DNA of 64,000 nucleotides from Streptomyces sp. CMB-StM0423 (GTDB taxonomy: Bacteria; Actinomycetota; Actinomycetes; Streptomycetales; Streptomycetaceae). The notes below the pieces were generated by a model. It had not been told where the DNA came from. It searched no databases and saw only the letters and a list, made by a program, of their open reading frames with translations. The stretch is from positions 1,302,001 to 1,366,000 of the forward strand of contig NZ_CP025407.1 in assembly GCF_002847285.1 (NCBI RefSeq). Direction: 5' to 3'. Both the position numbers and the translations under genes were made by a program. Positions 23,892-59,334 of this stretch are shown piece after piece. Each line of letters opens with the position of its first letter. Positions within the stretch are counted from its first letter, which is position 1.

Positions 23892-24481
23892 CGGTCCGGG
23901 GCGCCCAGCAGCTCGCGCAGCACCGCCTCGGCCGCCGCCGCGTCGCCCGCCGCGAGCGCGTCGACCAGCGCCTGCCGGCGGGCGGGCGCGGCCGCCGGGG
24001 GCCGCGCCCTGGCCCGCAGTTGGCCCGCGACGCGGGCCAACTGGCGGTTGCCGGAGAGCGCCACCAGTGCCTCGTGGAACTCCGCGTCGTCGCCGGTCAG
24101 CCGGCTCAGCGTCAGCCGGCGCTCGGCCGGCAGCCCGGCCGCCAGCCGGTGCAGCAGCGGCACGAGGAGCAGCGCGCGCACCTCCGCCAGCTCGGCCAGG
24201 TCGCGGGCGCTGGGCGCGAGGATCCGGAAGCCGCGGTTCGGCAGTATCTCCACCGCACCCTCCGCGGCGAGTTGCTGCATGGCCTCGCGCACCGGGGTCG
24301 CCGAGACGCCGAACCGCTCGCCCAGCGCGGGCGCGGAGTACACCTCGCCGGGCCGCAGTTCGCCGTCCGCCACCGCGGCGCGCAGCGCGTCGAGCACCTG
24401 GCCGCGTACGGAGTGCCGGCGCACCCCGGCCGGGGTGCGGCGCCGGCCGGGTACCGCCGGCGGATGCGGCACGTCCTCCAC
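23882..24481 (-). CDS. GntR-family (FadR/FCD subfamily) regulator
   Basis: A 199-residue protein from a GTG at 24481 preceded by GGGGGAA. The N-terminal winged HTH reads SVRGQVLDALRAAVADGELR, then PALGERFGVSATPVREAMQQ. An all-helical FCD domain follows (LAELAEVRALLLVPLLHRLA, FHEALVALSGN). The FCD domain appears shortened: only one clear metal-ligand His (FHEAL) is visible. FCD regulators often sense organic acids or sugar acids. It converges on the CE7 esterase and is about 175 bp from the divergent FhuF-like gene, whose iron box makes joint control unlikely. Confidence 0.85.
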   Translation of the reverse strand: MEDVPHPPAVPGRRRTPAGVRRHSVRGQVLDALRAAVADGELRPGEVYSAPALGERFGVSATPVREAMQQLAAEGAVEILPNRGFRILAPSARDLAELAEVRALLLVPLLHRLAAGLPAERRLTLSRLTGDDAEFHEALVALSGNRQLARVAGQLRARARPPAAAPARRQALVDALAAGDAAAAEAVLRELLGAPDRYV

Positions 24482-29942: not shown

Positions 29943-29968
29943 GGGGGCCCGGCCCGCGCCGGGCCCCC
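29943..29968. terminator. bidirectional hairpin terminator
   Basis: Arms GGGGGCCCGGC and GCCGGGCCCCC form a perfect 11-bp stem with loop CCGC. It sits between the convergent stops of the GH38 gene (29937) and the PP2C-like gene (29973). It has no U-tract, as is common in high-GC actinomycetes. Confidence 0.8.
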
Positions 29969-34603: not shown

Positions 34604-35722
34604 TCAGCCTCTCCCCTTGCGTGCCCGCGCCTCGCGCTCCGCCGCGTCGCGGCGCTTCCAGTCCCGCCGCCGGTCCGCCTGCACCCGCAGGTCCGTGCGG
34701 GCGGCGATGCGGGCGTTCTCGCGCTGGAGCTTGCGGTAGCTGTCCAGGCGGCGCGGGTGCAGCTCGCCGTCCTCGAGCGCCGCGAGCACCGCGCAGCCGG
34801 GTTCCGCGGTGTGCGTGCAGTCGTGGAAGCGGCAGCGGGCGGCCAGTTCCCCGATCTCGGCGAAGACCTGGCCGAGCCCGGCGTCGGCCTCCCACAGGCC
34901 GACGCCGCGCAGGCCCGGGGTGTCGATGAGGACGCCGCCGCCGGGCAGCGGCAGCAGGTCGCGGGAGACCGTGGTGTGCCGGCCCTTGCCGTCGGCGTCG
35001 CGCACCTCGTGGACCCGCTGCGTGTCCGCCCCCAGCAGGGCGTTGGCCAGCGTGGACTTCCCGGCGCCTGAGGCGCCGAGCAGCACGGAGGTGCCGGTGG
35101 ACAGCGCGGCGGCCAACTGCGGAACGCCCGCCCCGGTGGCGGCGCTGACCGCGAGGACGGCGGTGCCGGGCGCGAGTTCCTCGGTGTCGGCGACCAGGTG
35201 CCCGAGGACCACGGGGTCCTCGACCAGGTCGGCCTTGGTGAGCGCGACCAGCGGTTGCGCGCCGCTGGACCAGGCGAGGGACAGCAGCCGTTCCAGGCGG
35301 GCCGGTTCGATGTCGGCGGCGCTCGCCTCCGCGAGCGAGACGGCGATGACGGCGTGGTCGACGTTGGCGGCGATGACCTGGCCCTCGGAGCGTTTGGACG
35401 ACGCCGAGCGCAGGAAGGCCGTGCGGCGCGGCAGCAGGGCCTGTACGGCGAACCGCTCGCCCGGTTCGAGCGCCGCCCAGTCGCCGGTGCAGGGCAGCCG
35501 GGTGAGGTCGGCTGTCCGGCCGGCGGCACGGTCGGCGGCGGCGAGACGGGCGGTGGTGGCGCGGACGGGGCCCGCCTCGGTGAGGGCGATGCACGAGCCG
35601 CGGTCCACCCGCGCGATACGGGCCGGGATCAGCCCTTCGGACTCGTACGGCGCGAAGGCGTCGGCGGCGGCCTCATCCCAGCCGTAGGCGATCAGCCGGT
35701 GAGGTGCGGGGAGGTGTGTCAA
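34604..35722 (-). CDS. rsgA: ribosome small subunit-dependent GTPase A
   Basis: A 372-residue circularly permuted GTPase. The motif order is G4 (TKAD), then G1 (GASGAGKST), G2/G3 (TTVSRD, DTPGLR), as in RsgA/YjeQ. An N-terminal OB-fold precedes it, and a C-terminal zinc finger has CRFHDCTHTAEPGC. The Streptomyces-type N-terminus is LIAYGWDEAAADAFAPY. The start appears to be a TTG at 35722 with AAGGG 8 nt upstream. It assists late 30S subunit maturation and is stimulated by the ribosome. It is transcribed away from polX, with about 300 bp between the start codons. Confidence 0.92.
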   Translation of the reverse strand: MTHLPAPHRLIAYGWDEAAADAFAPYESEGLIPARIARVDRGSCIALTEAGPVRATTARLAAADRAAGRTADLTRLPCTGDWAALEPGERFAVQALLPRRTAFLRSASSKRSEGQVIAANVDHAVIAVSLAEASAADIEPARLERLLSLAWSSGAQPLVALTKADLVEDPVVLGHLVADTEELAPGTAVLAVSAATGAGVPQLAAALSTGTSVLLGASGAGKSTLANALLGADTQRVHEVRDADGKGRHTTVSRDLLPLPGGGVLIDTPGLRGVGLWEADAGLGQVFAEIGELAARCRFHDCTHTAEPGCAVLAALEDGELHPRRLDSYRKLQRENARIAARTDLRVQADRRRDWKRRDAAEREARARKGRG

Positions 35723-43402: not shown

Positions 43403-43789
43403 CTAGGGCGCGGCCGTGAGCTTCTCCGCGACCCGGTCGCGGAGAAGCTCGTACTCCTCGCGCAGGCGGACTATCTGCGGCGGGCGGGCGACGACCGTGC
43501 CCTCCGTGACCGTCTCCTCCGGGCCGAACTGCTCGCGGGTGAGGTCTATCTCCACGCCCGGGCCCAGGCGGTTCCACCAGTGGTAGTCCGTGCGCCGCCC
43601 GTCCACCAGCACCTCGCCGCGCAGCAGCTCGCCGCCCAGCAGGTCGTTGACGACCATCGCGGTCACGCCGCACTGGTCCCGGGCGGGATTCCCGGGCGTC
43701 CAGTACTCCCGGAACTCGGGGGTGCACGTGTCCGGGCCCCAACTGCTGCGCACGGCCCGCTCGATGTCGGTGAGAAGCAACGGCGTCAT
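43403..43789 (-). CDS. YunG-like protein
   Basis: A 128-residue protein from the ATG at 43789, with GAGG 9 nt upstream; ATG at 43798 is also possible. Motifs CGVTAMVVNDLLGGELLRGE, HWWNRL and VEIDLTREQFGPEE match the small YunG family. The family has a conserved Cys and His (DQCGVTA, DYHWWN) and an Asp (EIDLT), an arrangement that recalls a papain-like (NlpC-type) triad. Function is not established. It is convergent with the NHL-repeat gene, and the CbiX-type gene lies downstream on the same strand. Confidence 0.65.
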   Translation of the reverse strand: MTPLLLTDIERAVRSSWGPDTCTPEFREYWTPGNPARDQCGVTAMVVNDLLGGELLRGEVLVDGRRTDYHWWNRLGPGVEIDLTREQFGPEETVTEGTVVARPPQIVRLREEYELLRDRVAEKLTAAP

Positions 43790-43859: not shown

Positions 43860-44615
43860 TTACGCGGACAGCGGCAGCGGCTCCGCCGCGCACGCCTCGT
43901 CGTACCGCCGGGCCAGCAGCAGCGCCAGCTCCGGCGCCGCCCCCAGCACCGGTGCGAGCACGTCCGCCCGCGCCTCGGTGGCGCCCCGCACGATGCGGTC
44001 GGGCAGGAAGCCCGGGGCGATGACGTACGGCGCCACCGCCACCCGCTCGGCGCCGTCCGCGCGCAGCGCGCGGACGGCGTCGGCCGTACGGGGTGGGGCC
44101 GCGGAGGCGAACGCGGGCCGCACGGCGCACCATCCAGCGGTACGCCGCCACTCCCGCGCGGTCTCGGCGACGCTCGCGATCGCCTCCGGGTCGGAGGAGC
44201 CCGCCGCGGCCAGCACGACGCCCGTGCGGGCCCGCTCCGCGGGCAGGTGCAGCCCGGCCGCCGCCATCCGGCGGTCCAGCGCCGCCGTCAGCAGCGCGTC
44301 AGGGCCCAGCACGCCGCCCTGCACGACGCGCAGCCGCGGCAGCGCGGCCCGTACCTCGTCCAGGACGGCGGGGATGTCGGACTTGGCGTGGAAGGCGCGG
44401 GCCAGCAGCAGCGGCAGCGCCACGACGTCCCGTACGCCCCCGTCGTACAGCCGCCGCAGCGCCCGCGGCACCCGCGGGGCGCAGTGGTCCAGGTAACAGG
44501 TCTCCACCCGCGCATGCGGCCGCGCCGCCGCCACCCGCGCCGCGAGCGCGGTGACGGTGGCGGCGTGCCGCGGGTCGCGGCTGCCGTGGGCGACGATCAG
44601 CAGTACGGGATGCAT
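43860..44615 (-). CDS. CbiX/SirB-type sirohydrochlorin chelatase
   Basis: A 251-residue protein starting at MHPVLLIVAHGSRDPR; the ATG follows TAGCGT by 8 nt. The fold has two CbiX-like halves: the first with AHGSRDPR (catalytic His), YLDHCAPRVP and LPLLLARAFHAKSDIP (second His), and the second with VVLAAAGSSDPE and VAVAPYVIAPGFLPDRI. It inserts ferrous iron into sirohydrochlorin to make siroheme, the cofactor of the sulfite reductase encoded 1 kb upstream in the same direction. It may be transcribed with cysH, although 52 bp and a possible own promoter separate them. Confidence 0.85.
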   Translation of the reverse strand: MHPVLLIVAHGSRDPRHAATVTALAARVAAARPHARVETCYLDHCAPRVPRALRRLYDGGVRDVVALPLLLARAFHAKSDIPAVLDEVRAALPRLRVVQGGVLGPDALLTAALDRRMAAAGLHLPAERARTGVVLAAAGSSDPEAIASVAETAREWRRTAGWCAVRPAFASAAPPRTADAVRALRADGAERVAVAPYVIAPGFLPDRIVRGATEARADVLAPVLGAAPELALLLARRYDEACAAEPLPLSA

Positions 44616-50477: not shown

Positions 50478-51287
50478 GTGCCGCAGCTCGAACAGAAGAA
50501 GACCGCCGCGACCGACGCGGCGGCGTCCGCAAGCATCGACATCCGCGATGTGACGTGCACCTTCACGACGAAGCGCAGTCGCACCACGGCGGTCGACGGG
50601 GTCTCGATGCGGATCGAGCCCGGTGAGTTCGTCTCCATCCTCGGCCCTTCCGGCTGCGGCAAGTCGACCCTGCTGAAGATGATCGCCGGCCTGGTGCTGC
50701 CGACGACGGGCCAGGTCAGCCTGCTGGGCCGGCAGGTGACCGGGCCGCAGCGCAACATCGGCTTCGCCTTCCAGCGGGCCGCGCTGCTGCAGTGGCGCGG
50801 GGCGCGGAAGAACATCCTGCTCCAGGCCGAGATGCGCGGCATGGACAAGCAGACCGCGGCCCGCCGGGCCGACGAGCTGATCGAGCTGACGGGCCTGAAG
50901 GGCTTCGAGGACGCCCTGCCGCACGAGCTGTCCGGCGGCATGCAGCAGCGGGTGGCGCTGTGTCGCGCGCTGCTGCACGAGCCGCCGGTGCTGCTGCTCG
51001 ACGAGCCGTTCGGCGCGCTGGACGCGCTGACGCGGGAGCACCTGAACGTCGAGCTGAACCGCATCTGGCGGGAGACGGGCACGACCATCGTGCTGGTCAC
51101 CCACTCCATCTCGGAGGCCGTCTACCTCGGCACCCGGGTCGAGGTCATGAGCGCCCGCCCGGGCCGGATCATCGAGACCATGCCGGTGGACCTGCCGGCG
51201 GCCCGGGACTACGGGAAGGTCATGTCGGCGCCGGAGTTCGAGACCCTGGCGGCCCACATCCGCGGCCTCCTGGGCGGCGCCCACTAG
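50478..51287 (+). CDS. ABC transporter ATP-binding protein (SsuB/TauB-like)
   Basis: A 269-residue ATPase. Walker A is GPSGCGKST, the Q-loop GFAFQRAALLQWR, the ABC signature LSGGMQQR, Walker B LLLDEPFGALD and the H-loop LVTHSISEA. The gene starts at GTG 4 nt after the binding protein stop, with AAGGGG upstream. It powers the permease at 48494. An R-rich C-terminus (SARPGRI) is usual for nitrate/sulfonate importers. Confidence 0.93.
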   Translation: MPQLEQKKTAATDAAASASIDIRDVTCTFTTKRSRTTAVDGVSMRIEPGEFVSILGPSGCGKSTLLKMIAGLVLPTTGQVSLLGRQVTGPQRNIGFAFQRAALLQWRGARKNILLQAEMRGMDKQTAARRADELIELTGLKGFEDALPHELSGGMQQRVALCRALLHEPPVLLLDEPFGALDALTREHLNVELNRIWRETGTTIVLVTHSISEAVYLGTRVEVMSARPGRIIETMPVDLPAARDYGKVMSAPEFETLAAHIRGLLGGAH

Positions 51288-51393
51288 CCCGCCGCCGGTA
51301 GTACGCCGCCGCCCGGGGCCCGCCCGTCACGGGGCACCGGGCGGCGGCGTATCCGCGCTCGCGGCAGATTTAACAAACGCTTCATATTGTTTC

Positions 51394-51433
51394 GGAATTA
51401 CGTCGGCAATTCCGTTTCCGGGCAAGGGAATTG
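51394..51433. promoter_or_regulatory. three mutually exclusive inverted-repeat elements before the second leader peptide
   Basis: GGAATT (51394-51399), CAATTCC (51407-51413) and GGAATTG (51427-51433) occur in an AT-rich stretch. The middle element can pair with either flank. It is either overlapping operators in the promoter or, if transcribed, a switch-like RNA. The segment ends 34 bp before the leader ATG. Confidence 0.5.
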
Positions 51434-51466
51434 CATGCGCGACCGTATCTCTGCGATGGTGCGTGC

Positions 51467-51553
51467 ATGCCCACCGACCAGCGCTTCTTCGCCCGCCACC
51501 ACGTGGACTTGGTGCGCGTGGCGAGCGCGCTGTGTCCGTGCGGCCGTCCGTAG
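51467..51553 (+). CDS. putative cysteine-responsive leader peptide of the cysteine dioxygenase operon
   Basis: A 28-residue ORF beginning MPTDQRFF with the core ARHHVDLVRVASALCPC, then GRP and stop. It is too short for routine gene finders, but the motif matches the sir leader in this window (RHVDLGRMSSAIC). Two Cys codons (51533-51535 and 51539-51541) fall at the base of an 11-bp hairpin. The dioxygenase start follows 101 bp downstream. A cysteine-sensing role is inferred from sequence layout; translation is not proven. Confidence 0.75.
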   Translation: MPTDQRFFARHHVDLVRVASALCPCGRP

Positions 51554-51563
51554 ACGGCCGCAC
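51538..51563 (+). promoter_or_regulatory. perfect 11-bp hairpin overlapping the leader Cys codons and stop
   Basis: GTGCGGCCGTC (51538-51548), loop CGTA and GACGGCCGCAC (51553-51563). The left arm contains the second Cys codon, and the loop and right arm contain the stop codon. Translating ribosomes would control whether it folds. Confidence 0.75.
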
Positions 51564-51654
51564 CCGGGTGTACGCCGCGGGTGCTCGATTCCGAACGGGC
51601 CCTTTACGCCCGCTCATGCAGCCCGCCCCGTACACACCCCGGAACGAGGTCTCC

Positions 51655-52167
51655 ATGTCCACCCCGCCGACGCTCTCCCCCGCTGCGCCCGCCGCCGCGC
51701 CCGGCGCACCCGCCGGCCCGACGCCCGCCGCGCTCGCCGAGCTGGTCCGCGCCTTCGCCGGCCGGCCCGGCCGCTGGCGGCCCGCGGTCCGGTTCGACGC
51801 CGCGGCCCGCTTCCACACCCGGCTGGAGGTGACCGGCGGCCACGAGGTCTGGCTGCTGACCTGGCTGCCGGGGCAGGGCACCGAGATCCACGACCACGGC
51901 GGCGCCGCGGGCGCGTTCACGGTCGTGTCGGGGGTGCTCACCGAGCGCAGCTTCCCCGCGCCGCCCGCCGCGCCGCGGGCGCGGGAGCTGGCCGTGGGCG
52001 GGCTGCGCTCGTTCGGCCCGCGGTACGTCCACGAGGTGGTCAACGCCGGGACGGCACCGGCCGTCAGCATCCACGCCTACGCGCCCGCGCTGTCGGCCAT
52101 GTCGTACTACGCCGAGGTGCCCGGCGGCGGCCTGCGCCCGGTCCGTACCGACCCGGTGACCGGCTGA
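51655..52167 (+). CDS. cysteine dioxygenase type I (cupin)
   Basis: A 170-residue cupin from an ATG with GAGG 5 nt upstream. The iron ligands are His-x-His in EIHDHGGAAGAF and a third His in RYVHEVVN, as in CDO. The chain LLTWLPGQGTEIHDH and VVSGVLTERSF are the cupin motifs. It oxidises cysteine to cysteine sulfinate. The rhodanese gene overlaps its stop (TGATG). Its short, Ala/Pro-rich N-terminus is atypical. A leader peptide rich in late Cys codons precedes it, which would let the gene respond to its own substrate. Confidence 0.87.
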   Translation: MSTPPTLSPAAPAAAPGAPAGPTPAALAELVRAFAGRPGRWRPAVRFDAAARFHTRLEVTGGHEVWLLTWLPGQGTEIHDHGGAAGAFTVVSGVLTERSFPAPPAAPRARELAVGGLRSFGPRYVHEVVNAGTAPAVSIHAYAPALSAMSYYAEVPGGGLRPVRTDPVTG

Positions 52168-52562
52168 TGGCCGCCGCGGAGGCCCCCGGGATCGACGCGG
52201 CGCTCGCCGCCGTACGCGCCACGCTGGACCGCCTCACCCCCCGGCAGGCGTACGCCGCCCTCGCCGATGGTGCCGTCCTCGTGGACACCCGGCCCGAGTT
52301 CCAGCGGCGCGCCTCCGGCACCGTGCCCGGGGCCCTGCTGGTGGAGCGCAACCATCTGGAATGGCGCTGCGACCCGGCCAGCGGCGCATCGGTGGCCGAG
52401 GCCACCGGCACGGGGGTGCACTGGATCGTCATGTGTGACGAGGGATACGCCTCGTCGCTGGCCGCCGCCTCGCTCAGGTCCCTCGGGCTGACCCGGGCGA
52501 CCGATCTGACCGGCGGCTTCCAGGCGTGGCGGGCGGCCGGGCTGCCGGTCACGCTCCCGTAA
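52167..52562 (+). CDS. single-domain rhodanese-like sulfurtransferase
   Basis: A 131-residue rhodanese whose ATG overlaps the dioxygenase stop by one base. The domain has AVLVDTRPEFQRRASGTVPG, then GALLVERNHLEW and the active-site loop HWIVMCDEGYASS, where the Cys carries persulfide sulfur, ending LTGGFQAWRAAGLPV. Coupling with cysteine dioxygenase suggests handling of sulfane sulfur or thiosulfate during cysteine breakdown. The family also includes sensors, so the exact acceptor is open. Confidence 0.9.
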   Translation: MAAAEAPGIDAALAAVRATLDRLTPRQAYAALADGAVLVDTRPEFQRRASGTVPGALLVERNHLEWRCDPASGASVAEATGTGVHWIVMCDEGYASSLAAASLRSLGLTRATDLTGGFQAWRAAGLPVTLP

Positions 52563-58168: not shown

Positions 58169-59334
58169 ACCTGCCGTTCGGCAACTACCAGAACGAGATC
58201 TATCTGAACGGGCTGGCGGACGAGCTGCCGCCGTTCACCACCGACCTCACCGCGCTGGAGCAGTCCGCGCGCGAGCGGCTGGCGGACGGTCCGTTCTGGT
58301 ACGTCGCGGGCGCGGCCGGCTCGGGCGCCACCGCCCGGGCCAACCGGTCGGCGTTCGACCGGGTCCGCCTCGTCCCGCGCATGCTGACCGGCGCCACCGG
58401 GCGGAGCCCGGCCACCACCGTGCTGGGCACCGAACTCCCCGCGCCCGTACTGCTTGCGCCCGTCGGGGTGCAGTCGATCGTGCACCCCGACGGCGAACCG
58501 GCCACGGCCCGCGCCGCCGCCGCCCTCGGCATCCCGATGGTGATGTCCACGGCCTCCTCGTACACCATCGAGGAGGTCGCGGAGGCGAGCGGCGCGGGCC
58601 CGCGCTGGTACCAGCTCTACTGGCCGAACGACGACGAGGTGTGCGCCAGCATCCTGGCGCGCGCCCGCGCGGCGGGCTTCACCGCCCTCGTCGTCACCCT
58701 CGACACCTGGACGCTGGCCTGGCGGCCGCGCGATCTCGACGCCGCCTACCTGCCGTTCATCCGCGGCGTCGGCACCGCCGTCGCCTTCTCCGACCCGGCG
58801 TTCCGCGCGGGTCTGGAGAAGCCGCCGGAGGAGGACCTGGGCGCGGCGGTGCTGCGCTGGGTGCCGATGTTCACCGGTACGGACCGGACCTGGGACCGGC
58901 TGCCGTTCCTGCGGGAGCACTGGGACGGGCCGATCCTGCTGAAGGGCGTCCAGCACCCGGACGACGCCCGCCGGGCCGCGGACGCGGGGATGGACGGCGT
59001 CGTCGTCTCCAACCACGGCGGCCGGCAGGTCGACGGCGCGGTCGCGTCGCTCGACGTGCTGCCGGAGGTCGCCGCGGCGGTCGGCGACCGGGTCGAGGTG
59101 CTCTTCGACTCGGGCGTACGGACCGGGGCCGACGTGCTCAAGGCCCTGGCGCTGGGCGCGCGTGCGGTGCTGTACGGCAGGCCGTACGCCTACGGCCTCG
59201 CGCACGGCGGCGAGGCGGGCGTCACGCACGTGCTGCGCAGCCTGCTCGCCGACCTCGACCTCACCCTGGGGCTGTCCGGTCACCGCTCGGTGCGCGAGCT
59301 GGGCCCCGGCGACGTGCGGCGGCTTCCGGGCTGA
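58165..59334 (+). CDS. FMN-dependent alpha-hydroxyacid oxidase / lactate 2-monooxygenase-like
   Basis: A 389-residue TIM-barrel flavoprotein. FWYVAGAAGSGATARANRSA at the N-terminus resembles lactate 2-monooxygenase. PVGVQSIVHPDGEPATARAA, LVVTLDTWTLAWRPRDL, the catalytic VSNHGGRQVDGAVAS (His with Arg) and FDSGVRTGADVLKAL cover the FMN phosphate site. The family oxidises L-lactate, glycolate, mandelate or longer hydroxyacids. Coupling to the MMPL transporter by 4-nt overlap is unusual. Its last 74 bp overlap the convergent symporter gene. Confidence 0.9.
   Translation: MNLPFGNYQNEIYLNGLADELPPFTTDLTALEQSARERLADGPFWYVAGAAGSGATARANRSAFDRVRLVPRMLTGATGRSPATTVLGTELPAPVLLAPVGVQSIVHPDGEPATARAAAALGIPMVMSTASSYTIEEVAEASGAGPRWYQLYWPNDDEVCASILARARAAGFTALVVTLDTWTLAWRPRDLDAAYLPFIRGVGTAVAFSDPAFRAGLEKPPEEDLGAAVLRWVPMFTGTDRTWDRLPFLREHWDGPILLKGVQHPDDARRAADAGMDGVVVSNHGGRQVDGAVASLDVLPEVAAAVGDRVEVLFDSGVRTGADVLKALALGARAVLYGRPYAYGLAHGGEAGVTHVLRSLLADLDLTLGLSGHRSVRELGPGDVRRLPG

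Follow-up and report, generated by a model that had tools for sequence, protein, structure and literature searches.

A short leader ORF with a conserved rare cysteine codon precedes a cysteine dioxygenase–rhodanese operon in Streptomyces

The window analysed here is a 64-kb stretch (bases 1,302,001–1,366,000) of the 8.03 Mb, single-contig genome of Streptomyces sp. CMB-StM0423. It carries a cysteine dioxygenase (CDO)-family gene and an adjoining gene with a rhodanese domain, preceded by a short leader ORF, a promoter-like element, a hairpin (H1) and a second, predicted hairpin (H2) (Table 1). In agreement with a preliminary description of this DNA, translation of the leader ORF gave 28 codons with the tail ALCPCGRP, of which five residues lie beyond the conserved cysteine; apart from the TGT codon of Table 1, the ORF contains a second Cys codon, TGC, at 51539–51541. 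Another leader is located on the opposite strand, followed by a gene of the sulfite/nitrite reductase type (sirA) and then cysH, so that, as had been described, one leader stands before a cysteine-degrading gene (CDO_I) and the other before a cysteine-making operon.

Table 1 Features of the leader region and neighbouring genes, with positions in the 64-kb window
Feature	Position	Strand	Basis
CGGAATT-N8-AATTCCG inverted repeat 5′ of the promoter, perhaps a regulator site	51393–51414		sequence
TTGCAT, −35-like element, 36 nt before the ATG, in register with TTGACC of orthologues	51431–51436	+	sequence match only
Leader ORF, peptide MPTDQRFFARHHVDLVRVASALCPCGRP (then stop)	51467–51553	+	translation, NF042934 score, conservation
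Conserved, presumed sensing Cys codon TGT	51533–51535	+	TGT in 16/16 window-type loci
H1, an 11-bp hairpin with the stop codon in or beside its loop	51538–51563	+	sequence, alignment, folding
Hairpin H2 (51560–51566 with 51578–51584), 4 nt common with the H1 3′ arm	51560–51584	+	predicted only
GAGG, likely ribosome-binding site of CDO	51646–51649	+	sequence
Cysteine dioxygenase-family gene (CDO_I)	51655–52167	+	Pfam CDO_I, E 1.6e-19
Rhodanese-domain gene, start overlaps the CDO stop; adjoins CDO in relatives	52167–52562	+	domain search
Second leader of the family, MDRAGVALVSRRHVDLGRMSSAICPAG (then stop), before sirA-cysH-sirB	47508–47425	−	HMM match

In an HMM search, the CDO leader scored 29.6 bits against NF042934 ('putative leader peptide', cis_reg_atten), above the curated cut-off of 27 bits, with its residues 8–23 aligned to positions 4–19 of the 19-position profile. 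The sirA leader scored 33.3 bits, which bears out the earlier view that the two leaders are of the same type. The setting of the CDO leader also agrees with this family, as it is a tiny ORF that stops soon after a conserved Cys, with a sulfur-metabolism gene (CDO–rhodanese) on its 3′ side. The same leader fell below the 45-bit cut-offs of NF042936 and NF042933, the mycobacterial Ms4527A and Ms5788A models (15.2 and 14.2 bits, respectively), and its one conserved Cys does not form the contiguous run of Cys codons that marks the mycobacterial poly-Cys leaders. Four sites in the host genome exceeded the NF042934 cut-off and two more had E values below 0.01. Matches to this model (E ≤ 0.001) were present in all 41 Streptomyces genomes sampled, with 3 to 13 per genome, and the leader family is therefore known and common in Streptomyces. 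The CDO leader is a new target and lineage variant of this family: it has the RxHVDLxRVAS..C core and the position of a short ORF before sulfur genes in common with NF042934, but the model description names no target, whereas here a CDO operon is the target and the hairpin is CDO-specific.

A close CDO orthologue (E ≤ 1e-42) was held by 13 of 392 Streptomyces genomes, and the leader was found 5′ of CDO in all 12 that have upstream sequence; the thirteenth orthologue (G049) ends at a contig edge and was left out of this count, and a DNA search of that genome with the leader region gave no match. Sampling of 200 genomes of the family yielded seven holders of the CDO orthologue, five of them new and three of these five from two other genera, and the leader was present in all five new holders. 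Looked for upstream of CDO in other genomes, as had been proposed, the leader is thus not absent from relatives. Two holders from one genus (g14) carry a different leader subtype, MDTGTTLVCRLHVDLRRQASDMCAC (then stop), which scored 20.8 bits and thus fell under the cut-off of 27. Among 12 named loci, the leader was present in the five of the window CDO clade (L008–L012, where L008 is S. hoynatensis), and CDO adjoins rhodanese in all five; the locus sets overlap in these counts, as L023 (G185) is the same contig as L008 and L010 looks like G485. For other CDO homologues, a search of 25 loci with an NF-type leader pattern, which also misses the HMDL subtype, gave no match within 700 nt upstream at any of them. 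One Actinoplanes locus also has CDO and rhodanese side by side, with no leader by the NF-type pattern. In G104, one of the 12 Streptomyces orthologues, the leader stop codon is replaced and the frame stays open into CDO; this closest relative found (L021, G104:C1:1677324-1677490) has a stopless leader in frame with CDO, and both hairpin arms are kept.

Among the window-type relatives, the first Cys codon alone is conserved, and the 'CPC' of the window is replaced by CRP, CRR, CRS, CRA, CCR or CPR. The earlier statement that the stem starts between two Cys codons is correct in its coordinates, but the second Cys is not conserved, so this position is merely a local detail.

The codon used at the conserved position was surveyed in 94 leader sites from 13 genomes (E ≤ 0.02). 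Cys occupies the final match position in 87 of these leaders, encoded by TGT in 83; three more have Cys one or two places earlier, in each case as TGC (giving 83/90 TGT if they are included), and four are without a terminal Cys. These four (L078, L143, L144 and L163, class CL5) are RRHIDLLR.SSA-type leaders before GST-like genes. Internal Cys codons of the surveyed leaders were TGC in 43 of 45 cases and TGT in two, and those of the downstream genes TGC in 176 of 199 and TGT in 23. The TGT bias (83/90 count) gave Fisher p values of 4e-42 versus the internal codons and 2e-25 versus the downstream genes, both of which overstate independence because the leaders are related to each other. With TGT at the terminal position and TGC elsewhere, a rare synonymous codon is kept at one place. 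The window leader is likely to sense cysteinyl-tRNA, an idea that a single rare codon renders very directly testable.

We clustered the genes following the 94 leaders into classes, whose names rest on one representative each; the downstream genes were chosen by a composition rule and some are wrong (L158 and L159 were moved to the CDO class by hand, and L150 and L155 look miscalled). The main classes were rhodanese-type cysA2 (n = 13), sirA (n = 12), CDO (n = 12), SDF symporter (n = 8), cysO/cysM (n = 7) and GST-like (n = 7), and the smaller ones include TauD, FMN reductase, luciferase-like monooxygenase, sulfatase, SBP56 and an NMT1-type binding protein.

A consensus promoter scan gave no hit at the window leader. 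TTGACC is found 35–37 nt before the leader start in 14 of 16 loci, with TTGCAT in the window and in G104, and this spacing suggests that the transcript would begin at the leader ATG (leaderless) and not downstream of 51563. G104 also has a GGAATT..AATTCC repeat similar to that of the window. Of the 94 surveyed leaders, 37 had TTGAC 30–38 nt upstream of an in-frame start codon (ATG or GTG), compared with 1% of random 25-nt windows, several candidate starts per leader being permitted. The element was present in the classes TauD (4/4), FMN reductase (3/3), luciferase-like CL9 (4/4), sulfatase (2/2) and CDO (10/12), as well as in 11 of 11 leaders of CL6, CL8 and CL11, to which Pfam gives no identity. 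It was absent or nearly so from sirA (0/12), cysA2 (0/13), SDF symporter (0/8), GST-like (0/7) and cysO/cysM (1/7), and also absent from SBP56 (0/2), CL13 (0/2) and the NMT1-type protein (0/1); owing to the last three, the element does not cleanly separate scavenging classes from biosynthetic ones. In six genomes (G185:C9, G120:C142, G270:C357, G037:C31, G155:C47 and G344:C16), the CDO leader stands back to back with an RLHVDLRRQASA-type (TauD-type) leader on the other strand, 140–257 bp apart, and the gene after this second leader belongs to the TauD class in four and to the FMN-reductase class in one of the six.

The perfect 11-bp stem reported earlier was confirmed, as the H1 arms GTGCGGCCGTC (51538–51548) and GACGGCCGCAC (51553–51563) are exact reverse complements, separated by a loop of 4 nt that contains two bases of the stop codon. 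The window contains seven perfect stems with 11 bp or more and a loop of 3–8 nt, compared with 0.8 on average, and never more than 3, in 20 dinucleotide shuffles; an H1-like stem is therefore not unique there, and its position is what counts. Other perfect inverted repeats of 11–15 bp are located at 43418–43450, 44051–44079, 24017–24043, 29943–29968, 34879–34907 and 58460–58493.

Between the leader start and the CDO start, the RNA folds at z −5.2 relative to shuffles. When 16 loci were aligned (L008 being shifted by 3 nt), the nine central pairs of H1 were paired in 85.4% of 144 pair cells, as opposed to 24–61% after sliding by 1–3 columns; nine loci form all nine pairs and the other seven form five to seven. 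By eye, H1 was not seen in L174 and L175, two orthologues of the other leader subtype. Against letter shuffles of the H1 3′ side, the summed energy of −301.9 kcal/mol was better than 300 of 300 (best shuffle −267.5), and synonymous recoding of the leader tails gave equally good folds (mean −298.3 kcal/mol). Both sides of a pair had changed in only two cells, a level matched by 145 of 500 shuffles, and covariation was rejected as proof of H1. Given the few double changes and the recoded tails that fold as well, H1 is conserved mainly at the level of sequence. The tail of the window-type leader keeps CCGUC in 9 of 16 loci, where it is paired locally just after the stop codon.

Several familiar designs were rejected for this region. 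An intrinsic terminator with a U-tract does not fit, with 0 terminator-like sites in 51280–51680 and no U-tract after H1, nor does a classical transcription attenuator, in which a U-tract terminator would alternate with an antiterminator, as H1 and H2 have only 4 nt in common. Across the whole 64-kb window, no match to an Rfam family attained the gathering score. A general hairpin after the Cys codon was not found across the leader classes by mean downstream-fold z (cysA2 0.0, sirA −0.6, CDO −1.65, SDF symporter −2.0, GST-like −2.8). The GST-like class CL5, which has the lowest mean, includes single values down to −6.8.

A related operon, found in 13 chosen Streptomyces genomes, provides a second example of a leader before CDO and rhodanese. 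Its CDO is 39–46% identical to that of the window, and the rhodanese that stands beside it in 13 of 13 genomes is 56–63% identical to the window rhodanese. A leader ending in WRRVHMDLVRYAGCVCRPSC (then stop), or a near variant, precedes the operon in 12 of 13; in G012 it was looked for and not found. Eleven of these 12 leaders coincide with NF042934 matches from the Streptomyces genome sampling. The starts of the 12 CDO genes were picked by a GGACGG motif, and all 12 proved in frame with CDO and open. The leader tail CCGUCCUG could pair with the CDO ribosome-binding site CAGGACGG over 8 bp or more in 10 of 12 loci, and over 6 and 5 bp in the other two. The score of this pairing between tail and Shine–Dalgarno sequence (SD) averaged 10.6, compared with 6.3 when the tail was set against SDs from other classes, and none of 200 draws reached the observed mean. 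No excess was seen in the window type, sirA, TauD or cysA2, the last with 12 of its 13 loci because the start motif was not found in one. In an unrestricted 330-nt search for complements of the tail, shuffles often equalled single-locus matches (null at least as high in 4–96%); the weight of the evidence is in the repeated position, 5–7 nt before the start codon. In the related operon, a ribosome waiting at TGT would cover CCGUCCUG and free the binding site, and after its departure CCGUCCUG could pair with that site. This anatomy predicts expression at low cysteine. A leader that can pair in this way with the ribosome-binding site of the gene it precedes offers a simple system for cysteine-dependent attenuation of translation.

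In the window-type leader, sequestration of the SD was rejected, since the tail has no match to the CDO SD (198 of 200 null draws scored at least as high), and in a simple model of ribosome stalling, run on 15 window-type loci and leaving out L050, for which no start was given, no consistent change in SD access was seen. For these two reasons, we do not extend the related operon's translational read-out to the window.

The leader and its conservation, its preference for TGT, the promoter element and, in the related operon, the complementarity of tail and SD were observed directly; the leaderless start, ribosome stalling, the direction of the switch in the window and an action of H1 on either transcription or translation are what we infer. 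On balance, we favour the view that the leader is a Cys-codon attenuator, probably leaderless, which couples CDO–rhodanese to charged cysteinyl-tRNA and, via H1, turns the operon on at low cysteine. With sufficient cysteine, the ribosome would pass the rare TGT, terminate at the stop codon in the hairpin and depart, after which H1 would form and keep the operon down. At cysteine shortage, a ribosome waiting at TGT would cover the 5′ arm of H1, so that no hairpin forms and the operon is expressed. For H1 in the window, a hairpin block and an involvement of Rho are both possible modes of action.

The Rho version of the same switch is compatible with the favoured explanation and differs in the read-out: Rho would load on the C-rich, G-poor spacer after leader translation, and a stalled ribosome or a refolding of the RNA would lower termination. 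C exceeds G in the spacers of 16 of 16 loci (C 0.39–0.55, G 0.14–0.32), compared with 8 of 16 for the flank upstream of the leader, and Rho was proposed in 2005 for mycobacterial cys leaders, where it was termed weak in the available text (PMC1262725). C-rich spacers may nevertheless be common in Streptomyces anyway, and there is no evident way for a ribosome stalled 5′ of the spacer to exclude Rho; we hold this version to be possible, though less likely than not.

Cysteine dioxygenase is usually taken as a remover of surplus cysteine. The preliminary description held, from the opposite metabolic outputs of the two operons, that the read-out logic of the two window leaders must differ, a claim that three findings do not support. 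In the related operon, the complementarity of tail and SD predicts, as set out above, expression on Cys stalling. The TTGAC element is shared by CDO, TauD, FMN reductase and one monooxygenase class and is missing from sirA and cysA2, an unclean split. The third finding comes from S. coelicolor, in which we take SCO3035 to be a CDO gene adjoining whiB (SCO3034). SCO5772 is named a putative cysteine dioxygenase in the accessible part of PMC3087709. Both rise together with cys genes on H2O2 in published RNA-seq data: in Table 1 of PMC4991794, within the accessible text of that paper, SCO5772 and SCO3035 are entered as hypothetical proteins that are up 8.00-fold and 6.54-fold in the wild type after 2 h at 0.15 mM H2O2, together with SCO6094-6102, SCO4164, SCO2910 and metN; in the hsr mutant, zero genes were scored as up-regulated on H2O2. 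This co-induction is not a cysteine test, and it supports a common direction with the cys genes without proving it. Several H2O2-induced genes of the portion of PMC4991794 at hand (the cysH cluster, cysA, cysM and the two CDO candidates) belong to classes that have Cys leaders in the genomes studied here.

A reversed logic, in which finished translation of the leader would turn CDO on at abundant cysteine, H1 acting as antiterminator and H2 as a brake freed by stalling at TGT, would suit a cysteine-degrading enzyme, and it draws on the 4 nt common to H1 and H2 and on a TTTT after H2 in G104. Yet the predicted fold lets H1 and H2 largely coexist, a T-run of at least four is found in only 1 of 16 spacers, and both the co-induction of CDO candidates with cys genes in S. 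coelicolor (from the accessible text of PMC4991794) and the complementarity of tail and SD in the related operon point the other way; we therefore regard the reversal as improbable, and expression at low cysteine as the more likely direction for the window CDO. It is very unlikely that a promoter regulator alone controls the operon and the peptide has no regulatory role: the TTGAC element common to other leaders, the inverted repeat upstream of the promoter and the dependence of H2O2 induction on HbpS-SenS-SenR in S. coelicolor (available text of PMC4991794) are in keeping with it, but it leaves both the terminal TGT, kept against the codon preference of downstream genes, and the tail–SD pairing in the related operon unexplained.

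Under the favoured attenuation by cysteine shortage, the operon would respond in the same sense as the cysteine-making genes, a surprising behaviour for a presumed cysteine-degrading enzyme; the window CDO would then most likely serve sulfur salvage or thiol stress, not the disposal of surplus cysteine.

The other CDO paralogue is ~48% identical and, in 38 of 40 loci, stands close to a cofD-type gene; in the host genome, WhiB adjoins it. An unannotated poly-Cys leader ORF (e.g. MLANLALTSTRSAGSHGAARARCSCCCSGC, then stop), defined by at least three Cys among the last 14 residues and a position within 560 nt, was present upstream in 59 of 66 loci: all 40 of a newly fetched set (39 having an ATG), drawn from the better-scoring part of a longer list and not at random, 17 of 18 earlier loci, the host genome and L014. 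The loci of this paralogue include L032–L049 and L177–L216. The host-genome locus is G000:C1:5316030-5316455 (L176), with the leader MSDPWPYRPSEECPSCCSR (then stop), and the leader was missing at L016, L019, L045 and four Actinoplanes loci. Cys codons of these leaders were TGT in 229 of 290 cases, compared with none of the 23 counted over part of CDO itself. The four peptides searched had no match in NCBIfam up to E 10. SD complementarity of the poly-Cys leaders was below that of shuffles. A hairpin with changing partners (GACCCG/CGGGTC, GACCCAC/GTGGGTT, GACCCGT/ACGGGTC) was seen in 39 of 57 leaders, an uncontrolled count, and RNAalifold returned only two short helices for a set of 53, from which L014, L034, L042, L043, the host-genome paralogue, leaders without ATG and duplicates had been left out. 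In an active-site comparison with the mammalian-type CDO, the alignment register was ambiguous, and we make no claim as to substrate.

We tentatively propose, with less than even confidence, that both Streptomyces CDO kinds are under Cys-codon leaders, of the NF042934 type for CDO–rhodanese and of a separate poly-Cys family for the cofD-linked CDO, and on at cysteine shortage, that CDO may belong to a sulfur-salvage/thiol-stress response, and that such leaders may mediate part of the H2O2 induction of cys genes in S. coelicolor. With CDO placed behind apparent starvation-type cysteine sensors of two unrelated kinds, a function in salvage or redox balance is suggested for actinomycetes.

Leaders of comparable anatomy are known elsewhere. 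According to papers that cite Canestrari et al. 2020 (doi 10.1111/mmi.14498), mycobacterial leaderless poly-cysteine ORFs are also short ORFs with Cys codons before sulfur genes, and cysteine-responsive attenuation is reported for them; the window leader differs from these ORFs (models Ms4527A and Ms5788A) in its single conserved Cys and in having CDO downstream. The leaders in the available part of PMC1262725 ('acnes' species; cbs in B. longum) are likewise short ORFs with Cys codons near the stop, reported without conserved hairpins, and that part names no Streptomyces cys leader and no CDO. Among the matches listed in our literature search (titles and abstract starts; most subscription papers were outside its scope), there was none on a leader before CDO. 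The S. lividans amino-acid leaders (trpL, leuL, ilvL and others; accessible portion of PMC8079986) resemble the window leader in being mostly leaderless ORFs with assumed codon-specific stalling; several of them have U-rich terminators and none, in that portion, stands before CDO, whereas the window leader is without a U-tract. In Table 4 of the same portion of PMC8079986, the S. lividans metL peptide before metNIQ contains three Cys codons (CMCRRMC).
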